Origin: a virus
Direction: 5' to 3' (one strand)
DNA: 37,721 nt
Virus record (IMG/VR): IMGVR_UViG_3300023176_002495
Coordinates: 1 to 37,721 of that record
A model generated the notes under the pieces. The model had not been told where the DNA came from, did no database searches, and saw nothing but the letters and a program-made list of their open reading frames with translations. Below, one piece after another: positions 13,828 through 29,824 of the stretch. How positions within the stretch are numbered: the first letter of the stretch is position 1; every line of letters starts with the position of its first letter. Made by a program: the position numbers and the translations under genes.

Positions 13828-15519
13828 ATGCCAAGTTACAACTCTGTTAGAACTGCTGAAGCCCAACCCATCGGATCCGCCGTCCCTTGGGTTGGAGCAC
13901 TAACATCTATTCCTCCTGGGTGGCTGATATGCAATGGTCAAGAGTTGGATGCTGCCGACTATCCTTTGCTTAGAAGAGTGTTGAAAAACACTTATGGTGG
14001 TAACTCTTCGGGTGATTTTCCTAACTATTCCGGTACGTTTAACCTTCCTAATATCAGTCAGAAAGCATTGGCAGATATTTCGGTAGAATGGTTTGCTTAC
14101 AACGACGGTGATATTATTCCTGGTAATGATCAACCAACTTATAATATTGATAATGCTCAGTCGCTAGCTGTTATACAACCGTACATTGGTCCAGAGGGAG
14201 ATGTTGGTACACCCGGAACAGTCTTTGCTTTAACTGACTTAAACTTTAGCTATACTCCGGATCCAGATGGAACTTTAGAAAGAGCAACATTAGTATCTGG
14301 TATTGCAGCAGTAACAGGATCTACCTTGTTCTTTGGTAATGTTCCTGTTCAACCAGATCCTGCTCAGATTCCTCCATCTACAGGCACAGGAGCCAGTTTT
14401 AACATTATCAAAAATGAAGATACTACGTATCAGATTGCTAGACGAGAAAAGGGACAGGATTATGAAGAGGGAGATTTACTTATTATACCTGGAAATTTAG
14501 TTGGTGGTACATCTCCTGCTAATGACATTTTTATTCAGGTAGATACAATCGGAAATCCTTTTTACACAGGTACTATTGCTGCCTCTAACGGAGATCCTCT
14601 AACCTTTGTTCCTGGATTTGGTATTGATACGGTTAATGTTGTTCCTAGAAAACTAGGTAGAAGACATATGCCACCCCATACTCATTTGGGGCAATACGAC
14701 ACTCTAAACACAGTTGATAATGGAACTGTTCCTGGAAGAGGTGTTGGTGTATGGAGTAATCCCCAGATTGATATTACAGAGTATTGGTTTGGTAGAGTTA
14801 TTGCTGACGTTGGTGCTTGTCCTTTCATTGGATTTACATATACAACAGAAGAAGCAGACGTTGGTGTTGAATGGGGAGATTCTCGTGACACGGGCACTGT
14901 TACAGAAGTCACTAATCCTTTTACTTCTGGTGTAGGAAGATATGCTTTGGGATCAGTATCTGGAACACCACCAGCTAAGACTCATACAGTATTTCAAACC
15001 GGTCAAGCAGGACATGGTATTGCTAAACCATGGTTTGATAGTATTTCATTTAAGTTAAGAGATGCCACTGGTGCTGTATCTACAGATAGAGGTGTTGATC
15101 CCGGTGTAACAATACCAGGAACTTTGGATGATTTGAAAAAAACTGGTAGATTTAGTATTGACAGTAGGATTCCTTATAGCGATAATGGAGCTATTGTTAA
15201 CAGTATCAACTATGACTTGGGTATAGCTCCGGATAGTGATGATACGGTTTTTCGTACTGAAGTTATGTTTAATAATGCTGCTGACAGTTTTACTAGACTT
15301 ACACCAGAAATCACAACTGCTATTGATGTTATTATTGCACACGATCACCAGGGCGAGATTAATATTACTTACAACAATGGTAGTTTAAATATTCCTGGTA
15401 ATATTTCTTCTCAAGTAGCAGCAAATATTAATCCAGATAGTGTACCAAACGCTTTCCAGATCACATTTACATGTAACTCAGCAAACCTTACTTGTCTAAC
15501 CTTAATAAGAGCTTACTAA
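13828..15519 (+). CDS. tail collar-domain fibre protein
   Basis: A 563-residue protein with an N-terminal phage tail collar domain: GSAVPWVGALTSIPPGWL, then CNGQELDAADYPLL and FNLPN (residues about 16-75), the classic pattern of collar domains in short tail fibres and microcystin-related phage tail proteins. HxH elements (HTH near residue 285, HDH near 505) recall the metal-coordinating His pairs of T4 gp12-like fibre tips. The middle is beta-rich and repetitive. It follows the giant fibre gene after a single base and is followed by another collar protein after one base, so the three are co-translated. It is probably a fibre tip or adapter; the exact T4 counterpart is not clear. Confidence 0.82.
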   Translation: MPSYNSVRTAEAQPIGSAVPWVGALTSIPPGWLICNGQELDAADYPLLRRVLKNTYGGNSSGDFPNYSGTFNLPNISQKALADISVEWFAYNDGDIIPGNDQPTYNIDNAQSLAVIQPYIGPEGDVGTPGTVFALTDLNFSYTPDPDGTLERATLVSGIAAVTGSTLFFGNVPVQPDPAQIPPSTGTGASFNIIKNEDTTYQIARREKGQDYEEGDLLIIPGNLVGGTSPANDIFIQVDTIGNPFYTGTIAASNGDPLTFVPGFGIDTVNVVPRKLGRRHMPPHTHLGQYDTLNTVDNGTVPGRGVGVWSNPQIDITEYWFGRVIADVGACPFIGFTYTTEEADVGVEWGDSRDTGTVTEVTNPFTSGVGRYALGSVSGTPPAKTHTVFQTGQAGHGIAKPWFDSISFKLRDATGAVSTDRGVDPGVTIPGTLDDLKKTGRFSIDSRIPYSDNGAIVNSINYDLGIAPDSDDTVFRTEVMFNNAADSFTRLTPEITTAIDVIIAHDHQGEINITYNNGSLNIPGNISSQVAANINPDSVPNAFQITFTCNSANLTCLTLIRAY

Positions 15520-15520
15520 A

Positions 15521-16405
15521 ATGACTAAGTATTACACTCAAGAAAAAGCAAAGTTTGGGGGAACCACAGGAACTATTATTCCGTTTACAGTTCAGTTATC
15601 TCTTATTAACTTTCCTAATATTGCCGAGTTTAAAACTTTGGTGCCTGCTGGTTACTTAAGGTGTGATGGATCTATTGTTAGAGCAGAACTTTACCCAGGA
15701 TTGGCTGCTACCATTGGAGTAGGATCAAACTGTCCATTTGCTAAAGACCCAGATTCACTCACTGATGAGTTTTTTCAACTCCCTGATTTAGGATCAAAAT
15801 ATCTTTCTGGTTCTCTCAGTAGTGGAGAATATTTTAATGATACTATTCTGCAAAATGATAGCGGAACACAAAGAGTAGGGGCAGAAACAGTCGTTGATAC
15901 TCTTGTTGGAGATAACATTCAAATCAGTTGGACCGGAGCATTTGAAATTCAACAGCAACAGATTCCGTTTAGTGGAAATCCTATCTTTCAATCGTTAGAT
16001 AACGATGGAAATACTAGAGATGATTTCCTAGCAGAAGATAACTTCCAAGCACACGGTCATAATTCTGACGTTGGTGTATTCACATACTTAGGTAACTGGC
16101 AAGATAGTGCATGGTTCAATACATTTGAAAGAGGAGATAACCTAGGAACTACAGAAGGATCAAATGAGTTGATTCAGATTGAAGCACCACCTAATAATCA
16201 AGCTGCCCCTTCTCATAATCACAGGGTTCTTCTCCCTGGTGCTTCAGAACTTAGAGACAAATGTGATTTTAGTTTTATTTTGAATACACAACAGGTTGAT
16301 CCTGTTGGATTAGTAACTGATGTTACATTGACTACAGAAAACGTACAAAAGCTAGATAAAGCAATCTCTCCATACATTTTTATGGAGTATATTATTAAGA
16401 TCTAA
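15521..16405 (+). CDS. short tail collar-domain protein
   Basis: A 294-residue protein with a second collar domain at about residues 37-95 (AGYLRCDGSIVRAELYPGL, later FFQLPDLGSKYL). It has HGHN (near residue 178) and SHNH (near residue 231), which together resemble the HxH metal-binding pairs of T4 gp12-type short tail fibre heads. The C-terminus ends in FMEYIIKI, similar in style to the WAKWMIKAY end of the 1970-aa fibre. It lies between the 563-aa collar protein and the first glycine-rich adhesin, with 1-base spacers on both sides. It is probably a short tail fibre or fibre-tip protein. Confidence 0.8.
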   Translation: MTKYYTQEKAKFGGTTGTIIPFTVQLSLINFPNIAEFKTLVPAGYLRCDGSIVRAELYPGLAATIGVGSNCPFAKDPDSLTDEFFQLPDLGSKYLSGSLSSGEYFNDTILQNDSGTQRVGAETVVDTLVGDNIQISWTGAFEIQQQQIPFSGNPIFQSLDNDGNTRDDFLAEDNFQAHGHNSDVGVFTYLGNWQDSAWFNTFERGDNLGTTEGSNELIQIEAPPNNQAAPSHNHRVLLPGASELRDKCDFSFILNTQQVDPVGLVTDVTLTTENVQKLDKAISPYIFMEYIIKI

Positions 16406-16406
16406 A

Positions 16407-18017
16407 ATGCCATCAGTTTCGTTTTCTAATCCCGGTTACTATACAGTAAACCTTCCTGTTAACGCTTATGACATCTTCATACAAGTACGTGGTGCTAGAG
16501 GTGGTAATGGTGGCAGAGACGCTGGTGCAGTTGGCGGCGTAGGTGGATTAACTACACTACAAGATTTTACTCTAACTCAAAATTTTATTGCTAGGCAAAT
16601 AATATGTTGGGTTGGTGCCCGTGGTGGTAATGGTGCAGACAATCTAGGTAACGCTCCTGGTGGATTCGGCGGTGCTGGACTTGTTAGTGGTGGTCGTGGT
16701 GGTAATGCTGGCGATCCTCCCTTTTCTGGTGGTGGAGGTGGAGGAGGCGGTGCCTCAGGAATTATTATTAATGGCGTTAATGCTATTTGTATGGGTGGAT
16801 CTGGGGGAGGCGGCGGAGCTTCTGACAATAGGAATGGTGGCGGCTCTGGTCTGGCTGGTCTCGCTGCTACTGCTGTTACTAGTGTAACACCGACTAACGG
16901 TGGTGGTGGTGGAGACCCAGGTGGCACCGATGGTGGCGGCGGCGGCGGCGGAGGCGGCGGAGATAATGGTGGAGGTGGCGGCGGTTCTGGACAGGATAAC
17001 AACCGAGGAGGCGGCGGTGGCGGCGCTGGAGGATCTACTTATATTGGTAGTTTAGTTGCTGAGTTTGGAGCTACTGTACCATTTCAAACTGCTGGGAATG
17101 GTTTTGTTTCGCTCACTTGGGACCTTGCTCCTGTTATTGACTCTTTTACTGCTTCACCTAATCCACAAACTAGTTCATCTGGAACTCCACGTTATGACAC
17201 TATTTTAAGTTGGAGTGCTTTTGATTATGAAGTCCTTACATTAACTAGTAGTATTGGTGAGAGTTGGGATGTTACTGGACTTTTTTCTTTTGATATAACT
17301 AATCTACCACAATCTGTTTTTGATTCAAATTCTCCAGCTTCAAGATCATACACTCTCACAGCAACAAAAGTAGGAGCTCCAACAGCAACTGCTAGCACTA
17401 CGGCTAGTGCTTTTAACGATAATACTCCCACTTCTGTTAATAGACTGTCTGAAGCTGAGCCATTTAATACTAATCTGCTTGAACTTGAACCAAATACGTT
17501 CTATTACGTTACATATTCTATTTCTGGTGTAGATATGAATACCAGTGTTATTGCTAATAATAACTGTACTATCAGTTTAAATGCTATTAACTTCGGACCA
17601 TCCAGATTAGTCCAGATTAATAATCTGTTTTATGTTGGATTTACAACTGATGGTTTCAATCAGTCTAGAACTCCTGGTGGATTTGACGATAATGGAAGAG
17701 CTGTAGGGCAACCAAATCCTAAAGTCATTACATTTACAGTAGGAACTCAGGTTGTCAACCTAAATGTTGCTACTAAGCCTCCTATTATTCAAGAACTTTT
17801 TGATGCCGAGGGTCAACCATTATCCCCAGAAGCATTTCCAAATCCTGATATTGATACTGTCTTCCCGAACGTCAATACTGAATATGTTATAACAAACAGT
17901 GTTATAACTAACGATGCTCAAATCCCAGTAGAAGTTAAAGCATCTCTTCCTGGCGTTCAAGTTAGAGTTAATGGGGGTGGATGGCAAGACGTGAGAGAAA
18001 TAGGCACACCGCCATAA
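16407..18017 (+). CDS. glycine-rich adhesin-like protein A
   Basis: A 536-residue protein. Order: an N-terminal beta segment (1-30), a long glycine-rich region (about 29-210) with runs of up to 10 consecutive Gly, an Ig/PKD-like beta domain (about 243-340, DSFTASPNPQTSSSGTP), a second beta domain around LELEPNTFYYVTYSISGVDM, and a C-terminal module of about 70 residues (EGQPLSPEAFPNPDIDT ... VQVRVNGGGWQDVREIG). Gly-rich runs of this kind form polyglycine-II lattices in gp38-type adhesins of T-even-like phages, so a receptor-binding tip role is a reasonable inference. It is paralogous to the genes at 19178 and 20914. Only three cysteines are visible (67, 68, 128). Confidence 0.78.
   Translation: MPSVSFSNPGYYTVNLPVNAYDIFIQVRGARGGNGGRDAGAVGGVGGLTTLQDFTLTQNFIARQIICWVGARGGNGADNLGNAPGGFGGAGLVSGGRGGNAGDPPFSGGGGGGGGASGIIINGVNAICMGGSGGGGGASDNRNGGGSGLAGLAATAVTSVTPTNGGGGGDPGGTDGGGGGGGGGGDNGGGGGGSGQDNNRGGGGGGAGGSTYIGSLVAEFGATVPFQTAGNGFVSLTWDLAPVIDSFTASPNPQTSSSGTPRYDTILSWSAFDYEVLTLTSSIGESWDVTGLFSFDITNLPQSVFDSNSPASRSYTLTATKVGAPTATASTTASAFNDNTPTSVNRLSEAEPFNTNLLELEPNTFYYVTYSISGVDMNTSVIANNNCTISLNAINFGPSRLVQINNLFYVGFTTDGFNQSRTPGGFDDNGRAVGQPNPKVITFTVGTQVVNLNVATKPPIIQELFDAEGQPLSPEAFPNPDIDTVFPNVNTEYVITNSVITNDAQIPVEVKASLPGVQVRVNGGGWQDVREIGTPP
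16932..16961 (+). repeat. (GGN)10 polyglycine microsatellite
   Basis: Ten consecutive Gly codons, including five GGC in a row, within adhesin A. The tract is much more GC-rich than the surrounding roughly 40% GC sequence. Such trinucleotide runs can change length by slippage while keeping frame. Confidence 0.85.
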
Positions 18018-18029
18018 ATATAGAAAACC
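17910..18029 (+). repeat. direct repeat of adhesin 3' end plus leader, copy 1
   Basis: About 120 bases ending at the ATG of the next gene match 22372-22492 with roughly 16 mismatches and one added C by my hand alignment. The repeat spans the last codons of adhesin A, its stop, a CATAAATA motif and the leader of the following small gene. Conservation runs through the non-coding part. Confidence 0.8.
18013..18020 (+). promoter_or_regulatory. late-promoter-like CATAAATA
   Basis: This sequence overlaps the stop codon of adhesin A, 9 bases before the ATG at 18030. It is one base off TATAAATA. The spacing to the start codon is very short, so it may give a nearly leaderless transcript or may be fortuitous; the identical motif at the copy in 22475-22482 argues for function. 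Confidence 0.4.
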
Positions 18030-18320
18030 ATGGACGACTCTTCTAGGAAGTTTACGCTGGCATCAAGTAACACACATATTTTGTTAGCGTTGTATTATTC
18101 TCAGGTACATAATGACAATACTCTTTTGGATAGATTGTTTGAAATCACCGAAGAGTATGTAAGTCGTGGAATGACATCGGATACTGTTTTGTCCGATCTC
18201 AATCTAGTAATAGAGCAAGATCTTTCATTGATTCCCGATGCCCAAACGGCAGTATGGGAAACTGCTTTGGATGAACTGGACATGCCTGGTGATGAATATA
18301 AGAGTGTTATTAGGAGTTAA
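18030..18320 (+). CDS. small helical protein, family H, single-unit form
   Basis: A 96-residue acidic, mostly helical protein. Its core (LLALYYSQ ... LLDRLFEITEEYV ... MTSDTVLSDLNLVIEQDLS) is clearly homologous to residues about 28-85 of the 173-aa protein at 18510. It has no cysteine and no membrane segment. It is followed 2 bases after its stop by a Cys-rich mini-protein, and the same order (helical protein, then Cys-rich protein) recurs at 18510-19176. The position between glycine-rich adhesin genes suggests an adhesin-specific assembly or attachment factor, but this is inference and I know no named family. Confidence 0.68.
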   Translation: MDDSSRKFTLASSNTHILLALYYSQVHNDNTLLDRLFEITEEYVSRGMTSDTVLSDLNLVIEQDLSLIPDAQTAVWETALDELDMPGDEYKSVIRS

Positions 18321-18322
18321 TC

Positions 18323-18481
18323 ATGGAATGGGAAGGAAAGAAAGAAGCAGTTAGAAAACTGAAAATCTGTATTAGATGTAAGCATTTTGATCCAGAAAGT
18401 AAACAGTGTATGTTGAACAACAACTACATGCCTCAAAAAGTTATTGTTCCAAAAACAACGTGCCCAACTAATAAATGGTGA
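18323..18481 (+). CDS. Cys-rich mini-protein, zinc-binding-like
   Basis: A 52-residue basic protein with the pattern KICIRCKHF-8-C (residue 29), then CP and KW at the C-terminus. The CxxC...C...CP-x-x-(K/R)W layout is shared with the 50-aa protein at 19024 and with many small phage proteins. Four cysteines (16, 19, 29, 47) could bind one zinc. The ATG lies 2 bases after the preceding stop, and GGAG (18313-18316) serves as ribosome binding site. It is followed at once by a late-promoter-like box. Function unknown. Confidence 0.72.
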   Translation: MEWEGKKEAVRKLKICIRCKHFDPESKQCMLNNNYMPQKVIVPKTTCPTNKW

Positions 18482-18489
18482 GATAAATA
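18482..18489 (+). promoter_or_regulatory. late-promoter-like GATAAATA
   Basis: It starts one base after the stop of the Cys-rich mini-protein and 20 bases before the ATG at 18510. It differs from TATAAATA only in the first base and sits at a sensible distance for a late transcript of the second helical/Cys pair and adhesin B. Confidence 0.5.
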
Positions 18490-18509
18490 CCTATAGCTAA
18501 ATCCTTGTT

Positions 18510-19031
18510 ATGGAAGAAAAAATCCCAGCAGAAAAACCCTCTCTAGAGTTTGAGGAACTTTGGCGTAGATTTTCTATTTGTGCTTCACCTAATAATCTAT
18601 TATTTGCTCTTTATTTTGCCCTGGGTAGAAAAGACTATAGACTTTTGGATAAACTGTTCGACCATGTAGATCAGTTACTTGAGCGTTATAATATGACCCC
18701 GGAAACTATCATGGGTGATATTGATGCTAGTATCAACCAAGAGTATTCTATTACTCCTACTATTAATGATACTCCTACCAAAACTGAGTTATATGGAGGA
18801 TTACCTCTTCCTAACTTCCATAAAGATCAAATCATGATCTCTCTTGTTTTATCGGAATATTTTATCAGGAGAGATAATGACCATAGATTGAAAGAAGAAG
18901 TAGAGCAAAGAATCGAAGAATATATCAAAACAAATGATATTAGTATGGAAGATGCTCTAGATAGTTTGGCATATTCTTCTGACAATGATCTACTTTATAA
19001 ACTAGCACTAGAAGAGTTAAATAATGACTGA
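18510..19031 (+). CDS. helical protein, family H, two-unit form
   Basis: A 173-residue acidic helical protein made of two related halves. Residues about 28-85 (LLFALYFALG, LLDKLFDHVDQLLE, MTPETIMGDIDASINQEYS) match the 96-aa protein at 18030. Residues about 105-170 (MISLVLSEYFIRRDN ... MEDALDSLAYSSDNDLL) look like a more diverged second copy. So the gene seems to be an internal duplication of the upstream gene type. Its last 8 bases (ATGACTGA) overlap the next Cys-rich gene, which implies translational coupling. No known family is recognised. Confidence 0.72.
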   Translation: MEEKIPAEKPSLEFEELWRRFSICASPNNLLFALYFALGRKDYRLLDKLFDHVDQLLERYNMTPETIMGDIDASINQEYSITPTINDTPTKTELYGGLPLPNFHKDQIMISLVLSEYFIRRDNDHRLKEEVEQRIEEYIKTNDISMEDALDSLAYSSDNDLLYKLALEELNND

Positions 19032-19176
19032 CGTGAAACCTGCCATTGAGAGAATGAAAGTATGTATTGAATGTGAACATTTTAGAAAACCTCTCAAACA
19101 GTGTAAACTATGTGGGTGTTTTATGCCCATAAAAGTAAGAATCCCTACTATGATGTGTCCTATCAACCGTTGGTAA
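19024..19176 (+). CDS. Cys-rich mini-protein, second copy
   Basis: A 50-residue basic protein: KVCIECEHF, then QCKLCGCFM, then CP-INRW. It has six cysteines (14, 17, 27, 30, 32, 44) against four in the copy at 18323, with the same CxxC, QC and CP-x-N-(K/R)W landmarks. Probably a small zinc-binding protein. It overlaps the helical gene by 8 bases and is followed after 1 base by adhesin B, so the triplet is co-translated. The CKLCGCFM...CP...W pattern is seen in many small phage proteins, but no function is established as far as I know. Confidence 0.74.
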   Translation: MTDVKPAIERMKVCIECEHFRKPLKQCKLCGCFMPIKVRIPTMMCPINRW

Positions 19177-19177
19177 G

Positions 19178-20914
19178 ATGTCTCAAACAAGTTTTAATCA
19201 AATATATACAGTTGGTCCTCAGATCGTTAATATACCCGATAATGCAATAAATGTAGAAGTTATTTGTAGGGGAAACTACGGAGGCAATGGATTTGGCGGT
19301 GGCAATGGTGGTAGGGGTAAAGTAGGGCAGTTTAGATTTAACAGCAACTTTGTATCTAGATCTCTCAGATTAAGAATGGGAGCTCCTGGTCAAAATGGTA
19401 GTAGTCCTAGTGGAGGATCTGGGGGTGGAAGTTGGAGCTTGCAAGCCAGGGGCGGTGATGGCGGACCGGGACAATATACACAATCTGGATCTTCTTATTG
19501 GGCAAATACCACATGTAGCGGAAATGGTATGCCCTGTTACCAACTAAATCCACCATTTCCATGTAACTGTCAAAACAACTGTAGAAGTATTAGATCATGT
19601 GGTGATGGAATCAACTATACTTTATGGGAAAAACAATGTAGATATTGTTACACTAACACTATTAACACCGGAGGTGGAGGTGGTGGAGGAGGAGCAAATG
19701 GTATCGAAGATTTAAACTCCGGCACTCCCTTAATCGTTGCTGGAGGTGGTGCTGGAGGTGGAGGATTTGGTAGTGGTGGATCTGGATTTGATGCTGGATC
19801 ATGGTCCGGAACTACTAGCTCTATTGGGTTGAGTGTAGGTGCTAACGGTGGTAACAGAGGATCTGGCGGTGGAACTGGTGGAGGTGGAGGTGGAGCAAGT
19901 CCACAGACTAACTGGCAACAAAACTCTAACTCCAGATATAGATCAGATATAGTTACTTTGATATCAAATTTAGAAAACTATCAACTACTTGGGCAGCAAC
20001 CAGAGATTAGAGTTTCTTACACATCTTTGTTTCCGGAAATCAACTCTTTTAGTGCTAATCCGAACCCACAAACAAGTCCTACTGGTGTTCCTACATATAC
20101 TTCTACACTTAACTGGCAAGTATCTGATTTTCAATACAGTCGTGTAACTGGTCCTGGAGTTGATTTTACTACTAGTAACAATCCAGCATCATTGGGTATT
20201 ACCCTACCTCAATCTAATGCTGATGGAACTAGTCCTGCTTGTAATACTTACACATTAACGGTGTATGCTGGAAGCCAATCTGTATCTCAAAATCTTCAAG
20301 TTTGTGCCTTTAATGATGATGACATTACAACTATTAATATCGGAACTACAGGGCAGCCATTTGGAAATCCTATTGATGGTTTAGAACCAAATACAGTTTA
20401 TTATGTTCAGGTAACATGGACTGGTACTGATATGCCTATCTTATGTGAGTCTCCTCAATCAGGAACTTCGGTATCTATTAATGCTTTGAACTGGAGTAAC
20501 TCTATTATCTGTCCCGATGGTAATCCTTTGTACGTTAGATTTACATCACTACCATTTAACACTTCTACTGCCGTTGGAGGTGGTGGCGGTGGAGATCCTA
20601 TTGTAGGGTCTCCGAATCCCAAAACTATTAACTTCGAGGTTGGGGGAGTTCAGTATTCTTTTGTTGCCACGACTAGACCACCTGTTATCGAAGAAAACTT
20701 TGATCAGGAAGGATTACCTTTATCTCCCGATGCTTATCCAAATCCAGATATCGATACTGTTGTTCCTGATGTAAATCTTCCGTTTGTAACTACTAATGAG
20801 ATCAATGCTAATGACATTGAGATTCCTGTTGAGATTAAAACAGACCTTGCTGATGCTCAAGTTCAAATAAATAATGATGGTGTCTGGCGAGATATGAGGG
20901 AGATAGGATCCTAA
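19178..20914 (+). CDS. glycine-rich adhesin-like protein B with Cys-rich insert
   Basis: A 578-residue paralog of adhesins A and C. It has an N-terminal beta segment, a Gly-rich region (about 33-240), a PKD/Ig-like domain (SFSANPNPQTSPTGVPTYTS, about 290-390), a YYVQVTWTGTDMP domain and the C-terminal EG-PLSPDAYPNPDIDT ... REIGS module. The odd feature is a Cys-rich insert at about 112-157 with eight cysteines (113, 120, 129, 131, 135, 141, 154, 157), absent from A and different from C. This may be a variable receptor-contact loop held by disulfides or metal (inference). The start codon is 1 base after the Cys-rich mini-gene. The terminal A of its stop codon TAA is the first base of adhesin C's ATG. 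Confidence 0.78.
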   Translation: MSQTSFNQIYTVGPQIVNIPDNAINVEVICRGNYGGNGFGGGNGGRGKVGQFRFNSNFVSRSLRLRMGAPGQNGSSPSGGSGGGSWSLQARGGDGGPGQYTQSGSSYWANTTCSGNGMPCYQLNPPFPCNCQNNCRSIRSCGDGINYTLWEKQCRYCYTNTINTGGGGGGGGANGIEDLNSGTPLIVAGGGAGGGGFGSGGSGFDAGSWSGTTSSIGLSVGANGGNRGSGGGTGGGGGGASPQTNWQQNSNSRYRSDIVTLISNLENYQLLGQQPEIRVSYTSLFPEINSFSANPNPQTSPTGVPTYTSTLNWQVSDFQYSRVTGPGVDFTTSNNPASLGITLPQSNADGTSPACNTYTLTVYAGSQSVSQNLQVCAFNDDDITTINIGTTGQPFGNPIDGLEPNTVYYVQVTWTGTDMPILCESPQSGTSVSINALNWSNSIICPDGNPLYVRFTSLPFNTSTAVGGGGGGDPIVGSPNPKTINFEVGGVQYSFVATTRPPVIEENFDQEGLPLSPDAYPNPDIDTVVPDVNLPFVTTNEINANDIEIPVEIKTDLADAQVQINNDGVWRDMREIGS

Positions 20915-22479
20915 TGCCTACAAGAAACTATACATCCCCCGGTACGTACTTTTTTTCTGTCCCTTTATACGTTACTCGAATGGGTGGGACAGTCATTGGT
21001 GGCGGAGGTGGAGGATATAGGGATAATGATGGTGATGATGAAGGTGGTGGCGGCGGTGGAGGCGCTTTTGTAGCTACTCCCGGTAGAAATAGAGTAACTA
21101 GTTTTGGACAATCTATTCGTATCGTTGTCGGTGCTGGTGGCCCTGGTCGTAGCGGCGGATCTGGTGGAAATCCTGGGTCTGACAGCTCTATTTCTGGATG
21201 GTCTGGAACATCTATAACTGCCCGAGGTGGACGTACCGGTACTGATGACAACGGAGGTGGCGGTGGTGGTATTGGATCTGCCGCTCCTGGTGATACTATT
21301 CGATCTGGAGCTGGTGGTGCTGATGATGACGCGGGGAGACAAGGTGGACCTGCCGGTGGTTGTGGAGGCGCAGGGTCTTGCCCTAGTAATAGGGGAGGAA
21401 GAGGAGCCACTTTGAACGGAGGATGCAACGGATGCCCCGGCGGTAGATCTGGAACCGCCTACGGTGGTGGAGGAGCTGGAAATGATGGTGGCAGTTCTGG
21501 ATCTGGAAATCGAGGTGCTGCTCGAATCATCTACGAATATGATAATCCTGTTATCACTAGTTTTACATCAACTACACAAACAAGTTCTAACGGGATTCCA
21601 CAAGATACTGTTAGACTAGATTATTCTACATTAAACGCTGTTAGAGTAAGAATCCGACAAGATAGCACATCTGGACCGGTTATTATTAATGGGGCAGTTC
21701 CAAATGGTCCTGGCTCTGGTTATCTGATTAGCACGGGATTACAATCTACTGCTTTTGGTAACTCCCCAGCAACTAGAACATATTGTTTAGAAGCTACTGG
21801 TAACTCGGATAGCGGAGCAGCGGGTGGTGTAACAGTTAGACAATGTATTTCTGTTCAAGTTTTTAATGATGATACTCCTGCTAGTATTTCTAATAGTTCA
21901 AATGCTTTCCCTACAGGTGTTGGTACTGGTGGACCTGTTCCTTTAAATGAACTTAATCCAAGCACACAATATTATATTATAATCACATGGAATAATACTG
22001 ATATGCCGTGTAGGTGCTCTCCTGCTGTTAGTGGTCTTGCTTTAGGTGCTAACTCTAGTAATTTTACGACAGGAACTGTTACTATCCCCACTAACAGCAG
22101 GACGGTATATGCCAGATTTACTTCCGAACCATTTAATACTTCTAGAGTTGAATCATCGGGAGGTTTAGGTCAATATAATAGTAGAACTTATTCCTTTTCT
22201 ATTGGATCAGGAAGCTATAGTTTTACAGCGAGAACTAAAAGACCTAATCTCACAGAAATCTTTGATATAGAGGGGCAACCACAATCCCCGGAAGAGCTAC
22301 CAAATCCAGATATTGATACACTTGCTACTCCTAATCCACTTCCTTTTATTAACTCTAATGGGGTTACTCTTAATGATGCTGAAATCCCAGTGGAAGTTAA
22401 AGCATCTCTTCCTGATGTTCAAGTTAGAGTTAATAATGGTGGATGGTCTGATGTTAGGCAAATAGGCACACCACCATAA
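20914..22479 (+). CDS. glycine-rich adhesin-like protein C
   Basis: A 521-residue third paralog. Gly-rich from about 24 to 200, then a PVITSFTSTTQTSSNGIP beta domain, a YYIIITWNNTDMP domain and the shared C-terminal module ending VQVRVNNGGWSDVRQIG. The Gly-rich part has a four-cysteine insert (150, 156, 171, 174). The start shares one base with the stop of adhesin B (TAATG). Its last 110 bases and the following leader are nearly the same as those of adhesin A, pointing to duplication or recombination. It likely forms a fibre-tip adhesin; which of A, B and C is used on the virion cannot be told. Confidence 0.77.
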   Translation: MPTRNYTSPGTYFFSVPLYVTRMGGTVIGGGGGGYRDNDGDDEGGGGGGGAFVATPGRNRVTSFGQSIRIVVGAGGPGRSGGSGGNPGSDSSISGWSGTSITARGGRTGTDDNGGGGGGIGSAAPGDTIRSGAGGADDDAGRQGGPAGGCGGAGSCPSNRGGRGATLNGGCNGCPGGRSGTAYGGGGAGNDGGSSGSGNRGAARIIYEYDNPVITSFTSTTQTSSNGIPQDTVRLDYSTLNAVRVRIRQDSTSGPVIINGAVPNGPGSGYLISTGLQSTAFGNSPATRTYCLEATGNSDSGAAGGVTVRQCISVQVFNDDTPASISNSSNAFPTGVGTGGPVPLNELNPSTQYYIIITWNNTDMPCRCSPAVSGLALGANSSNFTTGTVTIPTNSRTVYARFTSEPFNTSRVESSGGLGQYNSRTYSFSIGSGSYSFTARTKRPNLTEIFDIEGQPQSPEELPNPDIDTLATPNPLPFINSNGVTLNDAEIPVEVKASLPDVQVRVNNGGWSDVRQIGTPP

Positions 22480-22492
22480 ATATAGAAAACCC
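22372..22492 (+). repeat. direct repeat of adhesin 3' end plus leader, copy 2
   Basis: Partner of 17910-18029. The last stretch (from AAATAGGCACACC to the leader TATAGAAAACC) differs by only one base plus an added C. The two copies flank the small genes of 18030-19176 and adhesins B and C, so recombination between them would delete or exchange that whole set. Confidence 0.8.
22475..22482 (+). promoter_or_regulatory. late-promoter-like CATAAATA
   Basis: Same motif and position as 18013-18020: overlapping the adhesin stop and 10 bases before the ATG at 22493. Kept in both copies of the 120-base repeat. Confidence 0.4.
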
Positions 22493-22714
22493 ATGGAAAC
22501 CACTTCTTTTATTTCAAAAGTATCTTTTGAATATGAAACTACCGCACCAAGAGTTTTGATAGAAACTACAGAAGAAACATATTCTGTGGATGATGGTCAA
22601 ATAAAGATTCATAATAGAAATACTACAAAAGTAAGATACAAGAGAGATGATGACATTTCTTCTCTTCCTGAAAATATTAAGCAGTTGATTACTACATATT
22701 GGCAAACATTATGA
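22493..22714 (+). CDS. hypothetical protein, 73 aa
   Basis: A 73-residue protein, beta-rich in the first half (SKVSFEYETTAPRVLIETTEETYSV) and helical at the end (ENIKQLITTYWQTL). No known family is recognised. It occupies the same place after adhesin C that the helical gene occupies after adhesin A, with the same leader sequence, but the protein is unrelated as far as I can see. Its stop overlaps the next ATG (ATGA). Confidence 0.65.
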   Translation: METTSFISKVSFEYETTAPRVLIETTEETYSVDDGQIKIHNRNTTKVRYKRDDDISSLPENIKQLITTYWQTL

Positions 22715-22908
22715 AAGATTTTAAGAAAAAAAATCTGAACAATACTGAGTTACATCCAGAAAAAACAGATTATTATAAGTCTGGAAGAATAGGTGTTAAC
22801 CACACAGATAAACCAGAAGAAATCAAAGCTTCTGTCCCTATTCAGGTAAGAGTGAATGGTGGACAGTGGAAAGATATTAGGGCATTGGACCCAGAAAACC
22901 AAGCCTAA
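22711..22908 (+). CDS. orphan copy of adhesin C-terminal module
   Basis: A 65-residue protein whose C-terminal half (EEIKASVPIQVRVNGGQWKDIR) matches the end of adhesins A and C (EVKASLP-VQVRVN-GGW-DVR). The N-terminal half is Lys/Asn-rich and unrelated. Start at ATG 22711, overlapping the previous stop as ATGA, is preferred to an upstream TTG at 22699. It may be a remnant of a fourth adhesin, or a free module that competes for or caps the site the adhesin C-termini bind. A CTAAATA late motif overlaps its last codons. Confidence 0.68.
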   Translation: MKDFKKKNLNNTELHPEKTDYYKSGRIGVNHTDKPEEIKASVPIQVRVNGGQWKDIRALDPENQA

Positions 22909-22941: not shown

Positions 22942-25900
22942 ATGCCGTTTTTACCACCAACCTCTTCGGGCGTTATTGTACAACCCGGCGATTTTGTAGA
23001 GATTAGATATCCAACTCCTTCAACTTGGGATACTGATATCACATTCCAAGTTCAGATTGGAGAAGGTATTGACGATGTTACCATCGGAACAAAAATCCCT
23101 GATGCACAACCAGACTTCTTTATTTTTAACGATCAACTAGGAAGAACAACACCTACATCTGGTGCATTTGGTAGTGTATTTGAGAAAAATACTGTTTATT
23201 ATTCTAATGCTATTCAAGTCTCTGGTATCGAACTAAGAGTACCTATTCGTATTAGTTCTTCTGGTTCTGGTCCTAGAGGAACTTATCCTAATCTTTCTCA
23301 AGCGGCATTCAGTGTTAATGATGGTCCATATATTACAGAGGCAAACTCATTTTTCCCTGTAACTATTACCGCTACTCTTGACTCTACATCTATTACAGTT
23401 ACTTCTGGAAACATCGGTGATTTTGCTGTTGGCATGTATATTGCCACGCCAAGAGCTACGGGAGAAATCTTAAGTATTGTTGGTAATGTCATTACTCTTA
23501 CAGAACCAGCATCTTCTTCTGGATCTTCTAGCGGAAATGGATATTTCACGGTTCAGGCTGGTAATACGGTTAGACTTAGAATCCAAACAGAAGACTGGTA
23601 TACCACAAATACAAACGTAACATTAACTATTTCTGATAACTATTGGGATGACGGCAGTCAGACTAATGGACAAATATCAGACACATGGAGTATTACTACC
23701 AGAGCACAACAACAAGTAGTTACCACATTATCGAATGGTACGTTCGTAGATTATATTGATCAAAGAGACTTTGATTTTGGCACCTACAAGACAGCGACAT
23801 TCCCCATCGTTGGTATTGATGACGATGCTATTGTTGAGGCAACATCAACCGGTGATATTGAAATCTCTACAGATGGAAATACTTGGGTACAGAACATTCA
23901 AAATCTTACCTTAGGAGATTCTATTGAAGCTAGAACTCTTATTGGTGTAGATTACACTACCCTTACACAAGGAACTTTAACTATTTTTGCTAACGCCGGT
24001 CAAACATTGCCTGGTGGATTTGAAAATAATACCCCTGGTACATTTGGTGCTGATCAAGGTAATGGAAACTTTGAAGTTACACAGGTTATTGGCACAACAA
24101 CAGATGATCAACAGATCTGGACAGAAGTAGATAGATATCCAGACCCTATTAGTTTGTCTCCGGTATTTACATATTCAGATAACTTTGTTCTTACACTTGC
24201 AGGCACTGGTGGTCAAGGATTTATTCTTAATGCTGTCTATAATACTAGCAACTTTACAACACCAGCTGCTACAGGATTAACAGTTAGAGCAACACAAGTC
24301 GGCGCTGGTGCCGGAGAACTTTTAGCAGTTGAGATCGTAGAAAGAGGATCTGGATATCAAGACTTAGATCAGATTCAAATCATTGGTGGTTCCGTTCCTG
24401 CTTTATATGATCTTCAACAATATAGAAAAGTAACAGTATCTACTACAAATGTAGTTCCTAATGCTGAACCTAATCGAGATTATTATGTTGATGTTCCTAT
24501 TTCTGGTCTAGGTGTTGAATATCTAGATGGAGCATATAATCTTTTAGAAGAACCTCTTGCTGGTGATGATGGTAATCCAGCATTACCTATTGACACTAGT
24601 GCTGTTAATGGACAAAATGTACAGATTCAAGCAGTTGTCCTTAGTGGAGCTATGGATCTTAGAAAAAATGATACAGGAACATGGTCAACTGGTGTTTTTG
24701 TAGAAAATGGTGATGTACTTAATGTAAGACTAAGATCCGGTACAAACTTTAATCAAACTGTAGTCAGTTCTTTTGAGTTTCAAGGTCCAGCATCTGCTGG
24801 ACCACTTGGTAATCCAACTCTAGGACCAGTATTTAATGTTCCGTCAGATATTACGGATACCCTTACATTAACTACAAGAGCTCCTAGGTATGTTCCTGAA
24901 AGATTCAAAGCTCCTTTACAGATTGTAGATACTCCTGGTCAACTTATTGTTGCTCAGATTCCTCTTGCTGGATTAGACGCTAATACTACTATTTCTGTCG
25001 TTAGTTCCACACCATTCTCGAATGCTGGTGTGTCATCTCAAGCAGCTGGACCATTTACTTCTTCTGCTTTATTAACTCCTGTTCTCCCCTTTGCTTATGT
25101 TGGTATTGAAGCAGGAGATCCCGGAGATATTGTTGAAGTTACGTACCAAATAGGTTTTGCTGGAGATACAGTTCAAGATAAGTTTGTGGTACTTACAGAA
25201 AAAGAAGATTACACTTATATTACTAGATTAGGAGGAACCGATACCACTGTATTTGCGGCACAGTGGGCAGATTTGATTGATGTTTATGTTTATGGTGCTG
25301 GTGGTGGAGATGGTGGACAAGATGCGCCAAATAGTTATGCTGGACAAGGTGCTCCTGGTAACTTTGTTACCGGTACATTAAATCTTCCTCCATCTGCCTG
25401 GCCAGATCCTATTAATAGAAGATTGAATGTTGTTGTTGGTGAACGTGGACTTGATGGTGCTGACTTTTCTAATAATGCCGCTGGTGGTGCTGGTGGTTTC
25501 GGATATGGATTAGGTGGTGCTGGTGGTGCTGGTGCTAACAATGAGTTCTCCGGTGGCGGTGGAGGAGGCGGTGGTGCTTCTGCCATTAACTTATTGGATG
25601 CTCTTGGAAATACTGTTGTTGATACACTAATCATCGCTGGAGGCGGTGGAGGTGGAGGTGGAGCAGGTGGTGATACTACTCCCCCTGAAGATGATCAGCA
25701 AGGAAATCGAGGTTTAGGTGGAGGTACTCTATCCGGCACTGATGTTGTTAATGTAGCAGGACTTGATGGCGAGACTAACACTGTCAAAGGTGGTGGCGGC
25801 GGTGGAGCCGGTGGCGGATTTGGAGCAGGAGGACTCACTAATACTCAAAAGTTTGATTCATTTGGTGGACTTATTGGAACTACAGATCTTGATGCTCAGG

Positions 25901-28854
25901 GTGGACAAGGCGGTGGATGGTATTATGACCCAGCATTATTAACTGTAGATAATAGTTTCTTGGGACAGAGTGAAGTTGGTAGTGCTCCTCAAACTGATGG
26001 ATTAGTTATTCTTGCTTGGCCACCACAGGATACAGTACCAGATCCTTTCTCCTTTACTCCTGCTGGTCCAGTTGATCCATTTACTACAGTAGAATCTGAA
26101 ATCGTTCAGATTACTGGTATTACTGGATTTGTCAACTTTAGTATTACTACAAATGGCAGTAGTGCTGAAATGAGATCAGCATCTGATCCAGTAACTTTAC
26201 TTTCTGAACCATGGGGTCCTGGCACCGTATTACAAAATAATGACTACTTACAAATCAGAATGACTACTGGAGCATTGTATAATATTTCATACAATGCTAT
26301 AGTTACTCCTGGTACTGGATCTAATGTTGTTTGGTTTGTATCTAACGGCGAAGCACCAGATACAACTCCTACTCCATTCATCTTTAGCGATGTAACAGGT
26401 GCTCCTATCAGCACACTTATTGAGTCTAATCAAGTTGATATTGGTGGTATCAACCAAACTGTAGATGTAACAGCAACTAACGGTGCTGAAGTTAGAGTAG
26501 GAACAGAAACTCCAGTAGGATCTGGTATCTATGTATACGGACCTTATCAACAATCTCCTCAACTTTCTCCGACTGTAACCGTTTCTAATGGGCAGCGATT
26601 ACAGGTTAGAATCTTGAGCTCTGCTGCTTATCTAAACACGGTATCTACCTCAGTTGTTGTTGGTAATAGTGGCAGTGTTATCTGGAATGTAACTACAGAA
26701 GCAGAACCAGATTTAAATCCTGATGTATTATCATTTGTTCCATTAGTTAATCAACCTCCTTTGACTGAGGTGTTTAGTAATATTCAGGACATTCAAAATA
26801 TCAGTCAACCTGTTGATTTAACAGTTACTAACGGTGCTTTGATTGAACTAAATGGAGTACAAACAGGATTGAGTACCATTCAAGTAGCTGAGTTTGATGT
26901 TATTAGACTTTATTATACTACTTCTGCTATTGCTGGTGAGACAGTAAACTTTGGTGTAACAGCAGGGCTCAATAATGAAGTATTTTGGTCAGTATCTAAC
27001 GCTGGTAGTTTCGGAACAACACCGGATCCATTTACTTTCGGATCCGTTACCACTCCTCTTGCCGGAGATCCTACCGAAAGTGTATTGACTGTAACTATCA
27101 GTGGCATCACGGATCCAAATGGTGTTTCTATCTATACTGATGAAAATAGTGGTATTCAACTAGAGATTATTCCACCAGCCGGATCTTTCACTGGCAACTA
27201 CCAATCTTATGCTGGATTAGCAAGTGATTTCTTCCCTGCTTTTGATGGGTATCAGATTAGAGCACGATTAACTTCTCCTCTGTTCCCTGGATTCTCTAGA
27301 GTAGGAACGGTGTATATTGGTGATGGTGTTGGAACATTCACTGTATTTACAGCGCCACCAGTACAAGAACCAATCCTAGGTCAGTGGTATAGTTCTTTGA
27401 ATGTTATTATTCGTAGTGGAGTAGATCCTAACGTTAGTTACGCTAAGTATCCAACTAAGTTTGACGGTCTACCTGTTGGTAGCATTATGCCTGTATTCAA
27501 AGAGAATGTTAACCAAGATAGCAGTGGTTTTGGAGATTTAGATGATGGCACAGTTGGTCCTCCATCTAGATTCCCTGGTTTCATTTATTGCTATGGTCAG
27601 TTATTAGATCCAGTTGATTATCCTGTTTTGTTTAGTGTCATTGGATATACATACGGACAAGATATCTTCAATAGATTTAGAGTACCTGATATGAGAAATA
27701 AGAAGGTGGTTGGTACTGGTCCTATTGATGGAACCCGTGCTTCGTCTCCTATCTTGGCACCAGATTTTGGTCCTACTAAGTCAACTACCGGTAGATCTGC
27801 TTTTAATCCCGGATCTCATGGTGGTATTTGGTTCATTGACACCATTAACTCTCCGTCTGATCAGGTTATTCCTCAGGTTGAAGACGCTGCTGGTGATAGT
27901 CCAGATGTTGATTCACAGTTCTTTGACATTGCAAGTATCAGAACTAGTGGATATACTGATGTAACTTCTGTTGTTGAGTTTATTACTACAGGTTCTTCTC
28001 GTGGTGATATTAGTTTGAAGGAAACAAGATTGTTTGAAGTTCCTTTCCACGTTCATGAACTGATGACAGGTGTTGCTGATGTTCCTACCAAAGGAAGAGT
28101 ATACTGGAATGGTAATGGTGGATATGAGAATGATTTACCAACAACCAGTTTCATTGGAGATTCTCAACCTCAAAACCCTGAATACGCCACGTTCCTTAAC
28201 TTGTGGGGATTTGCTATCACTGATGGTATAACCCTTCAAGAAGATGATGCCGTTGATACATCTACTGGCGATGGGGTGTGGACGAGAGAAGTCGAAGCAT
28301 GGTCTCCATCATTCTGTGCTGGTATTGTGCTGGTTCAGGGTGCTGGTTATGATGGAGACCATATTACTCAAGAGTGGAATAGCATTGATTACAGACAAAT
28401 CGGGTTGGAACCCGGCGGTGCCAACTATAACGAAATCAATAGTTTTATTGATGTTGATAATACTCCATTCCCCGGTGTAAGTTCTGGCGGTTCTACATTT
28501 AAATGGATTGCCGCCATTGATATTCCAAGCAGAATCGTTAGTATCGATCAGTTTAGACCAGCAGAGAGAGCATCTCACAATCATTATCTAACAAGAGAGA
28601 GTGTAACAGGAATTATTGATAAGTTTAGTTATGGTAATAACTCCGGTCCTGGTGTTGTGTATGACACCACACCATCCACGGAATCTATTGAAATCTTATT
28701 TGATGCTTTGGACATTGGTTTGGAAGTTTTACCTGGAACGTTTACATTAGATCAAAACAAACAGATTATTCCTACTCCATCTCTCCAACCACAGCAACAG
28801 GTTGGATTGATCACTCCATATGTTTGGGCGAAATGGATGATCAAAGCGTACTAA
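22942..28854 (+). CDS. large fibre protein with Gly-rich, beta-repeat and collar domains, 1970 aa
   Basis: Residues about 1-760 are beta-rich and include a KNTVYYSNAIQVSGIEL motif like the NTxYY domains of the adhesins. A Gly-rich block (about 775-1010, runs of 7-8 Gly) also resembles the adhesins. Four repeats of about 95-120 residues follow (about 1029-1471), each starting near DP-(F/L)-(S/T/I)F and closing in V(I/V)W(N/F/S)V(S/T)-like strands. A tail collar domain (about 1503-1600: GSIMPVF, GFIYCYGQLLDPVDYPVLF, FRVPDMRNKKVVG) follows, and the end has HVHE and HNHY pairs typical of gp12-like metal-bound heads. So it combines an adhesin-like body with a short-tail-fibre-like tip. A late promoter motif precedes it and the chaperone-like gene follows it. 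Confidence 0.83.
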   Translation: MPFLPPTSSGVIVQPGDFVEIRYPTPSTWDTDITFQVQIGEGIDDVTIGTKIPDAQPDFFIFNDQLGRTTPTSGAFGSVFEKNTVYYSNAIQVSGIELRVPIRISSSGSGPRGTYPNLSQAAFSVNDGPYITEANSFFPVTITATLDSTSITVTSGNIGDFAVGMYIATPRATGEILSIVGNVITLTEPASSSGSSSGNGYFTVQAGNTVRLRIQTEDWYTTNTNVTLTISDNYWDDGSQTNGQISDTWSITTRAQQQVVTTLSNGTFVDYIDQRDFDFGTYKTATFPIVGIDDDAIVEATSTGDIEISTDGNTWVQNIQNLTLGDSIEARTLIGVDYTTLTQGTLTIFANAGQTLPGGFENNTPGTFGADQGNGNFEVTQVIGTTTDDQQIWTEVDRYPDPISLSPVFTYSDNFVLTLAGTGGQGFILNAVYNTSNFTTPAATGLTVRATQVGAGAGELLAVEIVERGSGYQDLDQIQIIGGSVPALYDLQQYRKVTVSTTNVVPNAEPNRDYYVDVPISGLGVEYLDGAYNLLEEPLAGDDGNPALPIDTSAVNGQNVQIQAVVLSGAMDLRKNDTGTWSTGVFVENGDVLNVRLRSGTNFNQTVVSSFEFQGPASAGPLGNPTLGPVFNVPSDITDTLTLTTRAPRYVPERFKAPLQIVDTPGQLIVAQIPLAGLDANTTISVVSSTPFSNAGVSSQAAGPFTSSALLTPVLPFAYVGIEAGDPGDIVEVTYQIGFAGDTVQDKFVVLTEKEDYTYITRLGGTDTTVFAAQWADLIDVYVYGAGGGDGGQDAPNSYAGQGAPGNFVTGTLNLPPSAWPDPINRRLNVVVGERGLDGADFSNNAAGGAGGFGYGLGGAGGAGANNEFSGGGGGGGGASAINLLDALGNTVVDTLIIAGGGGGGGGAGGDTTPPEDDQQGNRGLGGGTLSGTDVVNVAGLDGETNTVKGGGGGGAGGGFGAGGLTNTQKFDSFGGLIGTTDLDAQGGQGGGWYYDPALLTVDNSFLGQSEVGSAPQTDGLVILAWPPQDTVPDPFSFTPAGPVDPFTTVESEIVQITGITGFVNFSITTNGSSAEMRSASDPVTLLSEPWGPGTVLQNNDYLQIRMTTGALYNISYNAIVTPGTGSNVVWFVSNGEAPDTTPTPFIFSDVTGAPISTLIESNQVDIGGINQTVDVTATNGAEVRVGTETPVGSGIYVYGPYQQSPQLSPTVTVSNGQRLQVRILSSAAYLNTVSTSVVVGNSGSVIWNVTTEAEPDLNPDVLSFVPLVNQPPLTEVFSNIQDIQNISQPVDLTVTNGALIELNGVQTGLSTIQVAEFDVIRLYYTTSAIAGETVNFGVTAGLNNEVFWSVSNAGSFGTTPDPFTFGSVTTPLAGDPTESVLTVTISGITDPNGVSIYTDENSGIQLEIIPPAGSFTGNYQSYAGLASDFFPAFDGYQIRARLTSPLFPGFSRVGTVYIGDGVGTFTVFTAPPVQEPILGQWYSSLNVIIRSGVDPNVSYAKYPTKFDGLPVGSIMPVFKENVNQDSSGFGDLDDGTVGPPSRFPGFIYCYGQLLDPVDYPVLFSVIGYTYGQDIFNRFRVPDMRNKKVVGTGPIDGTRASSPILAPDFGPTKSTTGRSAFNPGSHGGIWFIDTINSPSDQVIPQVEDAAGDSPDVDSQFFDIASIRTSGYTDVTSVVEFITTGSSRGDISLKETRLFEVPFHVHELMTGVADVPTKGRVYWNGNGGYENDLPTTSFIGDSQPQNPEYATFLNLWGFAITDGITLQEDDAVDTSTGDGVWTREVEAWSPSFCAGIVLVQGAGYDGDHITQEWNSIDYRQIGLEPGGANYNEINSFIDVDNTPFPGVSSGGSTFKWIAAIDIPSRIVSIDQFRPAERASHNHYLTRESVTGIIDKFSYGNNSGPGVVYDTTPSTESIEILFDALDIGLEVLPGTFTLDQNKQIIPTPSLQPQQQVGLITPYVWAKWMIKAY

Positions 28855-28876: not shown

Positions 28877-29824
28877 ATGACATTTAATCCTGACGATTTT
28901 GTTTTTAAATCTCTTCGAGTACCAGAGGATAATCCAACGGTATTAGAATATGATGCTACTCAAAAGTTTATTCTTATTCGACACAAGAATGAAGGAACTC
29001 AAGAACTAGATTATCAAGCTTGTCAACTATCAACAGAGCTTAATGATCATCTATTAAATAATATCCCTGACGAATATTCTAATAGAAATGATCGTATTCT
29101 TTTGTTCTACATTAGAAAAGACGGCACATATAGATTAGAAAAAGAGAAACTGAAGTATAACTTTCAAACCAAAGAGAGTTCTTGGGTTAGGTATGAGTAT
29201 AAAGAACTTACTTTAGAGCAAGCAAAAGAGTTATTTGAGGCTATCAAAGCGACAGCATGGGCTCAAGATGTTACTACTGCTGTCAAGATTAGAAATGAAA
29301 GTCTGGAACTTGCTAAAAAAAGACCTTATCTAGATAAAATGCACCTAGATAGACTTCAACTACAACAAAAAACTCTCCGTAATACAGACTGGAGAATCCT
29401 GGATGATGCTCCCCAGGAATATGAAGGTGAGATTGATAACTGGCGTTTGTTTAGAAGAAAACTAAGAGAGATTGTCAAGTCTCCTGATATGTTTGAGGAT
29501 GAACTTGATTACCTACTTTATAATGCTGATTTTAGATGGCCGATGAGCCCATATCAATGGCATATTAACTATCCAGATTCCCCAGCGTCTGAATATTTAC
29601 AAGATGATGCTCATTGGTCCGTGTCTCTAGATAGTCATATTGGCAACGAGAAACTAAATGATATTCAAAGAGATATCAATAATGTTTTGAAAGCTGCTAT
29701 TGAAAATGAACTACCAGAAGGATTTGGTGGTACACCAGAAAATGAACTCTTAATCAGACTTGCCAAGAAATATAAGTTATTGGCAGATATCCCAGAAATA
29801 AACACAATCATTTCCGAATCATGA
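28877..29824 (+). CDS. tail fibre assembly chaperone-like protein
   Basis: A 315-residue protein. Residues about 168-225 (LRNTDWRILDDAPQEY ... NWRLFRRKLREIV ... DFRWP) match the layout of phage tail assembly chaperone proteins: a 'TDW-x-L-D' turn, a 'W--(F/Y)R--LR-I' helix and a terminal WP. The N-terminal 130 residues are beta-rich and end in a helical stretch. Chaperones of this type help fold or trimerise tail fibres, and the place right after the large collar-tipped fibre fits. The last 4 bases overlap the next gene (ATGA). The homology is read from a short motif, so the call is moderate. Confidence 0.65.
   Translation: MTFNPDDFVFKSLRVPEDNPTVLEYDATQKFILIRHKNEGTQELDYQACQLSTELNDHLLNNIPDEYSNRNDRILLFYIRKDGTYRLEKEKLKYNFQTKESSWVRYEYKELTLEQAKELFEAIKATAWAQDVTTAVKIRNESLELAKKRPYLDKMHLDRLQLQQKTLRNTDWRILDDAPQEYEGEIDNWRLFRRKLREIVKSPDMFEDELDYLLYNADFRWPMSPYQWHINYPDSPASEYLQDDAHWSVSLDSHIGNEKLNDIQRDINNVLKAAIENELPEGFGGTPENELLIRLAKKYKLLADIPEINTIISES

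Follow-up and report, generated by a model that had tools for sequence, protein, structure and literature searches.

The gp38 adhesins of the S16/T2 type are encoded by a separate gene beside the fibre gene and carry a glycine-rich face that is thought to read the receptor. Another described case is the tail fibre gp24 of phage Pam3, which combines TNF-like and glycine-rich domains and resembles the receptor ALK (PMC9608196). The host-range proteins of T4-like cyanophages, which are among the most abundant viruses of the sea, are poorly known, and the locus described here names candidate genes for them. The DNA that we analysed (the window) is an IMG/VR record of 37,721 bases and a fragment of a T4-like cyanophage. 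Two further IMG/VR contigs, 99.95-99.99% identical to it, come from the same population. In the left part of the window lie a gene for a protein of 3741 aa, two genes with tail-collar domains (13828..16405, i.e., 13828-15519 and 15521-16405; this and all features below are on the plus strand) that are counterparts of T4-GC735/736 and mark the left edge of a conserved slot, an array of putative adhesin genes, a collar-domain fibre of 1970 aa (22942..28854) and then a gene (28877..29824) at the position that the “tail assembly chaperone” (T4-GC741) occupies in related phages, a correspondence of gene order and not of homology. The same gene order is found in the T4-like cyanophages (Kyanoviridae) S-RIM32, S-PM2 and Syn1, and also in Sf-FR1.

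The array comprises three genes called as open reading frames, A (16407..18017, 536 aa), B (19178..20914, 578 aa) and C (20914..22479, 521 aa), and a short gene D (22711..22908, 65 aa from its ATG), which is the last before the fibre. A, B and C all proceed from a glycine-rich N-terminus (up to 50% Gly per 50 aa) through two Ig/FN3-like domains to a common C-terminus, and C alone of the three exceeds the Pfam cut-off for Gly_rich_2. An HMM of this C-terminal module, built without any sequence from the window or from Sf-FR1, matched exactly four places in the six-frame translation of the window (E 4e-7 to 5e-6, against a best E of 0.19 in 20 shuffled sets): aa 465-532 of A (nt 17799-18002), aa 508-576 of B (nt 20699-20905), aa 450-517 of C (nt 22261-22464) and gene D. 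A preliminary description of this DNA had proposed that three paralogs and the 65-aa gene, at these same positions, have a common C-terminal module, with which the held-out HMM agrees; the motif it spelled out is looser in reality, as gene C reads PSTQYY and the end of gene B reads VQINNDGVWRDMREIG. To the array as then described we add four small genes, which separate A from B, and a proposed partner for the module, namely the N-terminal end of the fibre that starts at 22942. Profiles were needed for these comparisons, given that BLASTP of A against B gave no useful match, probably due to their composition. IMG/VR searched with A, B or C singly returned direct relatives from the same population alone.

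The four small genes between A and B (18030..19176) lie outside the docking scheme proposed below and are apparently two duplicated pairs, in which helical proteins of 96 and 173 aa are each followed by a four-cysteine protein of 50-52 aa, one of these being phrog_13558. Another small gene (22493..22714, 73 aa) overlaps D by 4 nt and has a positional counterpart in Sf26 of Sf-FR1; most loci that carry a free half-domain such as D have space for one. A T4-like late promoter word (NATAAATA) lies in a repeated stretch at 18013 and 22475, where it overlaps the respective stop codons of genes A and C. Among 64 IMG/VR fibres, 47 have the same word within 80 nt upstream, as against 1 of 62 reference array genes, and so the fibre and the tips may be transcribed separately.

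In the relatives, the slot between the tail-collar gene (GC736) and the gp12-like collar fibre (GC740) is likewise where the array proteins sit, with 2 to 6 modules in more than 12 cyanophage species and many IMG/VR contigs; A, B and C share both this position and the C-terminal module with the array proteins of the T4-GC737-739 type. Three modules each are found in S-PM2, S-RIM32, S-H9-2, Syn1, S-RIM44, Sf-FP1, Sf-CH11, S-CAM1 and ACG-2014i, while ACG-2014e and one ACG-2014j isolate hold three modules in two proteins, one chain having two. S-CAM4 has two modules and S-CAM3 six, and S-H9-1, S-MbCM7, S-RSM4 and S-WAM2 are without an array. A strict rule of three modules per trimer was considered and rejected, since three is common yet 2, 4, 5 and 6 also occur. 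Across 77 IMG/VR loci we counted 238 modules, 223 of which lie within 15 aa of the C-terminus, with the other 15 inside longer fused chains. One such locus (L072, 2362-9138) encodes a single chain of 2259 aa with four modules, i.e., four fused tips, which could bridge several fibre chains. In Sf-FR1, two annotated genes (Sf23/Sf24; L004, 11454-13362) resemble one array gene broken by a frameshift in the deposited sequence. The collar fibres of S-RSM4 (L026, 14789-19009) and S-WAM2 (L025, 14892-18701) carry glycine-rich regions in the same chain, without Ig repeats, and are an alternative, one-gene solution in array-less phages.

The AlphaFold2 model of A, predicted with 22 relatives, had a mean pLDDT of 84.8. 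Over residues 1-240 it matches ALK and LTK in their TNF-like/Gly-rich domain (Foldseek 3.1e-6 to ALK; Z about 15), and its residues 241-458 form two FN3/Ig-like domains; the predicted tip hence has the TNF-like plus polyglycine fold of the ALK glycine-rich domain and of Pam3 gp24-like proteins. The solved S16 gp38 is not among the structure matches listed for the model of A, which by itself does not speak against a similar fold. The preliminary description had likened the array to gp38-type adhesins, a likeness that the analysis does not support in that form. The polarity is reversed, as S16-type gp38 attaches by its N-terminus and is glycine-rich towards its C-terminus. Moreover, a Gly-rich tip is missing from 90 of 241 array members: the TNF-like/Gly-rich type accounts for 151, a PA14-like type for 66 and a vWA-like type with a DxSGS motif for 10, the remainder being rarer types. 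The names of the PA14-like and vWA-like tips are our reading of the sequences, most of which have no Pfam match. The vWA-like tips (W[IL]D[VI]SGSM) include gp221 in locus L003, gp31 in L023 and the second half of gp32 in L013, and their motif is possibly a metal-dependent adhesion site.

The fibre downstream of the array (gp12-like, the counterpart of T4-GC740) carries a phage tail collar domain (PF07484, E 1.5e-12), an internal Gly-rich domain (aa 757-1028, 25210..26025) and four complete Ig-like repeats (aa 1033-1470, 26038..27351). Complete repeats of this kind, about 98 residues long and unnamed by Pfam, are a feature of the downstream fibres generally. When an HMM was trained exclusively on complete repeats, the array C-termini matched its first part alone (mostly positions 14-53 of 98) and the fibre N-termini matched about 54-98. 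In the window, the second half corresponds to aa 1-52 of the fibre (22942..23097; HMM positions 57-90 of 98), a match that is weak for this fibre alone (iE 0.035) but strong in relatives and in profile comparison; the similarity of module to repeat is also weak for single sequences. Profile-profile comparison aligned 162 non-redundant modules to columns 2-58 of the 104 repeat columns (E 1.2e-5, score 31, whereas 200 column shuffles scored no higher than 14) and the fibre N-termini to columns 61-104 (E 2.8e-10). Two proteins, therefore, contain complementary halves of one Ig-like domain. The second half starts 67 of the 70 ORFs downstream of IMG/VR arrays, and of the other three, which are not complete fibres, one is a truncated fibre, one a further array gene and one unrelated. 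The second half is absent from the fibre start in the four array-less phages named above. A second arrangement is found in Sf-CH1b and 10 IMG/VR loci. Here the array proteins comprise almost four repeats and stop at position 86-87, and the fibre of this type (555 aa) opens with YTT(T/N)WSVST, the last strand, so that the cut falls one strand from the domain end. The position of the cut thus differs between the two arrangements, but in both it falls within an Ig domain and leaves complementary pieces. The annotation of the relatives does not mention this relation, and no description of it was found in the literature that we searched.

Judging from sequence relations and models, we consider it probable that the array adhesins dock by completing the split Ig domain at the fibre N-terminus, and that the paralogs are interchangeable receptor-binding tips. 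Each of A, B and C would consist of a tip domain, an Ig-like stalk and the first half of an Ig-like domain, and the fibre encoded just downstream would open with the second half, such that the junction between tip and fibre would be a completed Ig-like domain, as in the donor-strand complementation of pili. T4 gp12 is a homotrimer; if the gp12-like fibre is trimeric as well, it would offer three sites for docking, to be occupied by members of the array pool. The proposal in the preliminary description that the constant C-terminus docks to the fibre agrees with the complementary half found at the N-terminus of the downstream fibre; the binding itself and the orientation of the proteins on the virion are putative. 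Divergence of the modules follows that of the fibre N-terminal repeats (Spearman rho 0.78-0.79) more than that of the fibre C-terminus (0.49), with a mirror-tree signal for the half-domain that is no stronger than for the next repeats, and residue-level covariation between module and fibre half gave uninformative noise.

A split domain might also be left behind by gene fission, if a single ancestral chain of tip plus fibre had been severed within an Ig domain and each half had since come to fold or bind by itself, for example with the module packing on its own stalk and attachment running through other surfaces. Such a history would suit Sf-CH1b, in which the same chain of about four repeats is shared differently between genes, and S-SCSM1 gp146, a virion protein according to its record, which combines a Gly-rich domain and the same Ig repeats within a single chain. 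However, few parts of the array proteins are conserved as well as the module, which nonetheless is not confidently folded on its own (the AlphaFold2 model of the A module has pLDDT below 50 at 463-507 and about 60 thereafter), the two different cut sites are both complementary, and the modules have been multiplied and homogenised within genomes. We therefore regard a mere relic of fission as unlikely, and prefer docking by domain completion.

The array proteins vary at the end opposite to the module. In sorting the 241 array members into tip types, low-complexity BLAST merged everything, and the clustering was redone leaving out the Gly-rich tips. Of 37 array proteins from 12 genomes, 31 had their nearest module within their own genome (2.4 expected by chance) and none its nearest tip. 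Between S-RIM44 isolates the middle gene differs over 400 vs 798 residues before 98% identity returns in the last 86 codons, and between ACG-2014j isolates the swapped gene regains identity (91%) 68 codons ahead of its stop. Isolates of one species thus exchange entire tips, and the module is where the breakpoint falls. A constant docking end with a variable adhesin face had been suggested in the preliminary description, and genome-specific modules, varying tips and whole-tip swaps agree with it, docking itself being a putative step. Copy number, which it had also proposed to compare, differs between close isolates, and so do the tips. Since every tip bears the same short 3′ module, recombination there would swap tips without breaking docking. 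On another account the array proteins would be anchors or side-fibre linkers, and the collar-domain C-terminus of the fibre would bind the receptor, in the manner of T4 gp12, which binds with its C-terminal part; the collar domain of the fibre and its gp12-like annotation are in keeping with this. Anchors would be expected to stay constant, though, whereas between isolates of one species no part swaps faster than the tips, which also include adhesin-type folds; this makes the account improbable and favours the tips as the receptor-binding part.

Gene D encodes a free half-Ig module. It has counterparts in Sf27 of Sf-FR1 and in genes of 58-70 aa in about 15 IMG/VR loci, placed between the last tip gene and the fibre. 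The complete fibres of these loci are all long (1820-2010 aa) and have an internal Gly-rich domain, whereas those of other loci are about 970-1350 aa and lack it. Keeping just the end of the module and no tip, D could be taken for the debris of a fourth adhesin gene or for a spurious ORF, but the same gene in the same place in so many loci, the coincidence with the long, Gly-rich-bearing fibre type and a pairwise dN/dS of 0.05-0.29 in all 13 pairs tested, which indicates a gene under purifying selection, make this very improbable. The likeliest role of D, and a reasonable guess, is that of a putative cap, in which the free half-domain would take a docking place without adding a tip. Readthrough of the D stop codon into an in-frame fibre was also considered and rejected, because the two are out of frame in about half of the loci with such a gene. 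In the window D, the spacer and the fibre N-terminus do share one frame, and they were modelled as a single chain with both stop codons as residues (code 6). Confidence was moderate (both halves about pLDDT 64-79, low in the spacer, pTM 0.50), and structure comparison gave weak Ig-like sandwich matches spanning both halves (Z up to 6.2). The model is compatible with complementation, modestly so given that linkage in a single chain favours contact.

The array proteins of relatives are annotated as “virion structural protein” or hypothetical, and their presence in virions rests on this annotation. Virion proteomics of S-SM1 and S-PM2 is described in PMC3037559, while the proteomics of S-SZBM1 and S-CREM2 were of no help on array proteins. 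When S-PM2 evolved with its host in a chemostat, mutations arose in the block genes d218, d219, d220 and d224 (PMC9910659), and the array genes d221-223 are not among the mutated genes named in the main text of that study, an omission that, as far as the main text goes, counts against split-domain docking by array tips. A broader reading of the locus is that one collar-fibre gene serves as a split-domain socket into which the products of 2 to 6 tip genes plug, joined in one clade by a half-domain without a tip, so that single virions display mixed tips and recombination at the half-domain exchanges them; to this we give even chances. In the literature searched we found no phage case of a plug-in adhesin system with mixed display, and no paper on strand complementation in phage fibres.

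If docking works as proposed, its interface would be open to testing with two short peptides, and it would account for close isolates that differ in recognition proteins while nearly everything else nearby stays common. Ig-fold complementation, known from pili, would then extend to phage fibres with several alternative partners per acceptor. Compared with known systems, the array genes of S-PM2, Syn1, S-RIM32 and others (T4-GC 737-739, 1047, 1048) are relatives, with the same slot and module. The S16/T2-type gp38 is alike in its Gly-rich face and in being a separate gene adjoining the fibre gene, but is a single copy with the opposite polarity and without an Ig half-domain. Pam3 gp24 has the same type of receptor-binding fold, with its ALK resemblance, but is a single protein with an N-terminal helical anchor (PMC9608196), whereas the array proteins have an N-terminal tip, a C-terminal half-domain as anchor and several alternative copies. 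In the chaperone-usher pili, as proposed here, the neighbouring protein supplies the strands that an Ig-like domain lacks, and the Sf-CH1b type comes nearest to them, as one strand is supplied, at the N-terminus of the other protein. Unlike in pili, most of these phages cut the domain near its middle, and the acceptor is a phage fibre with several alternative partners.
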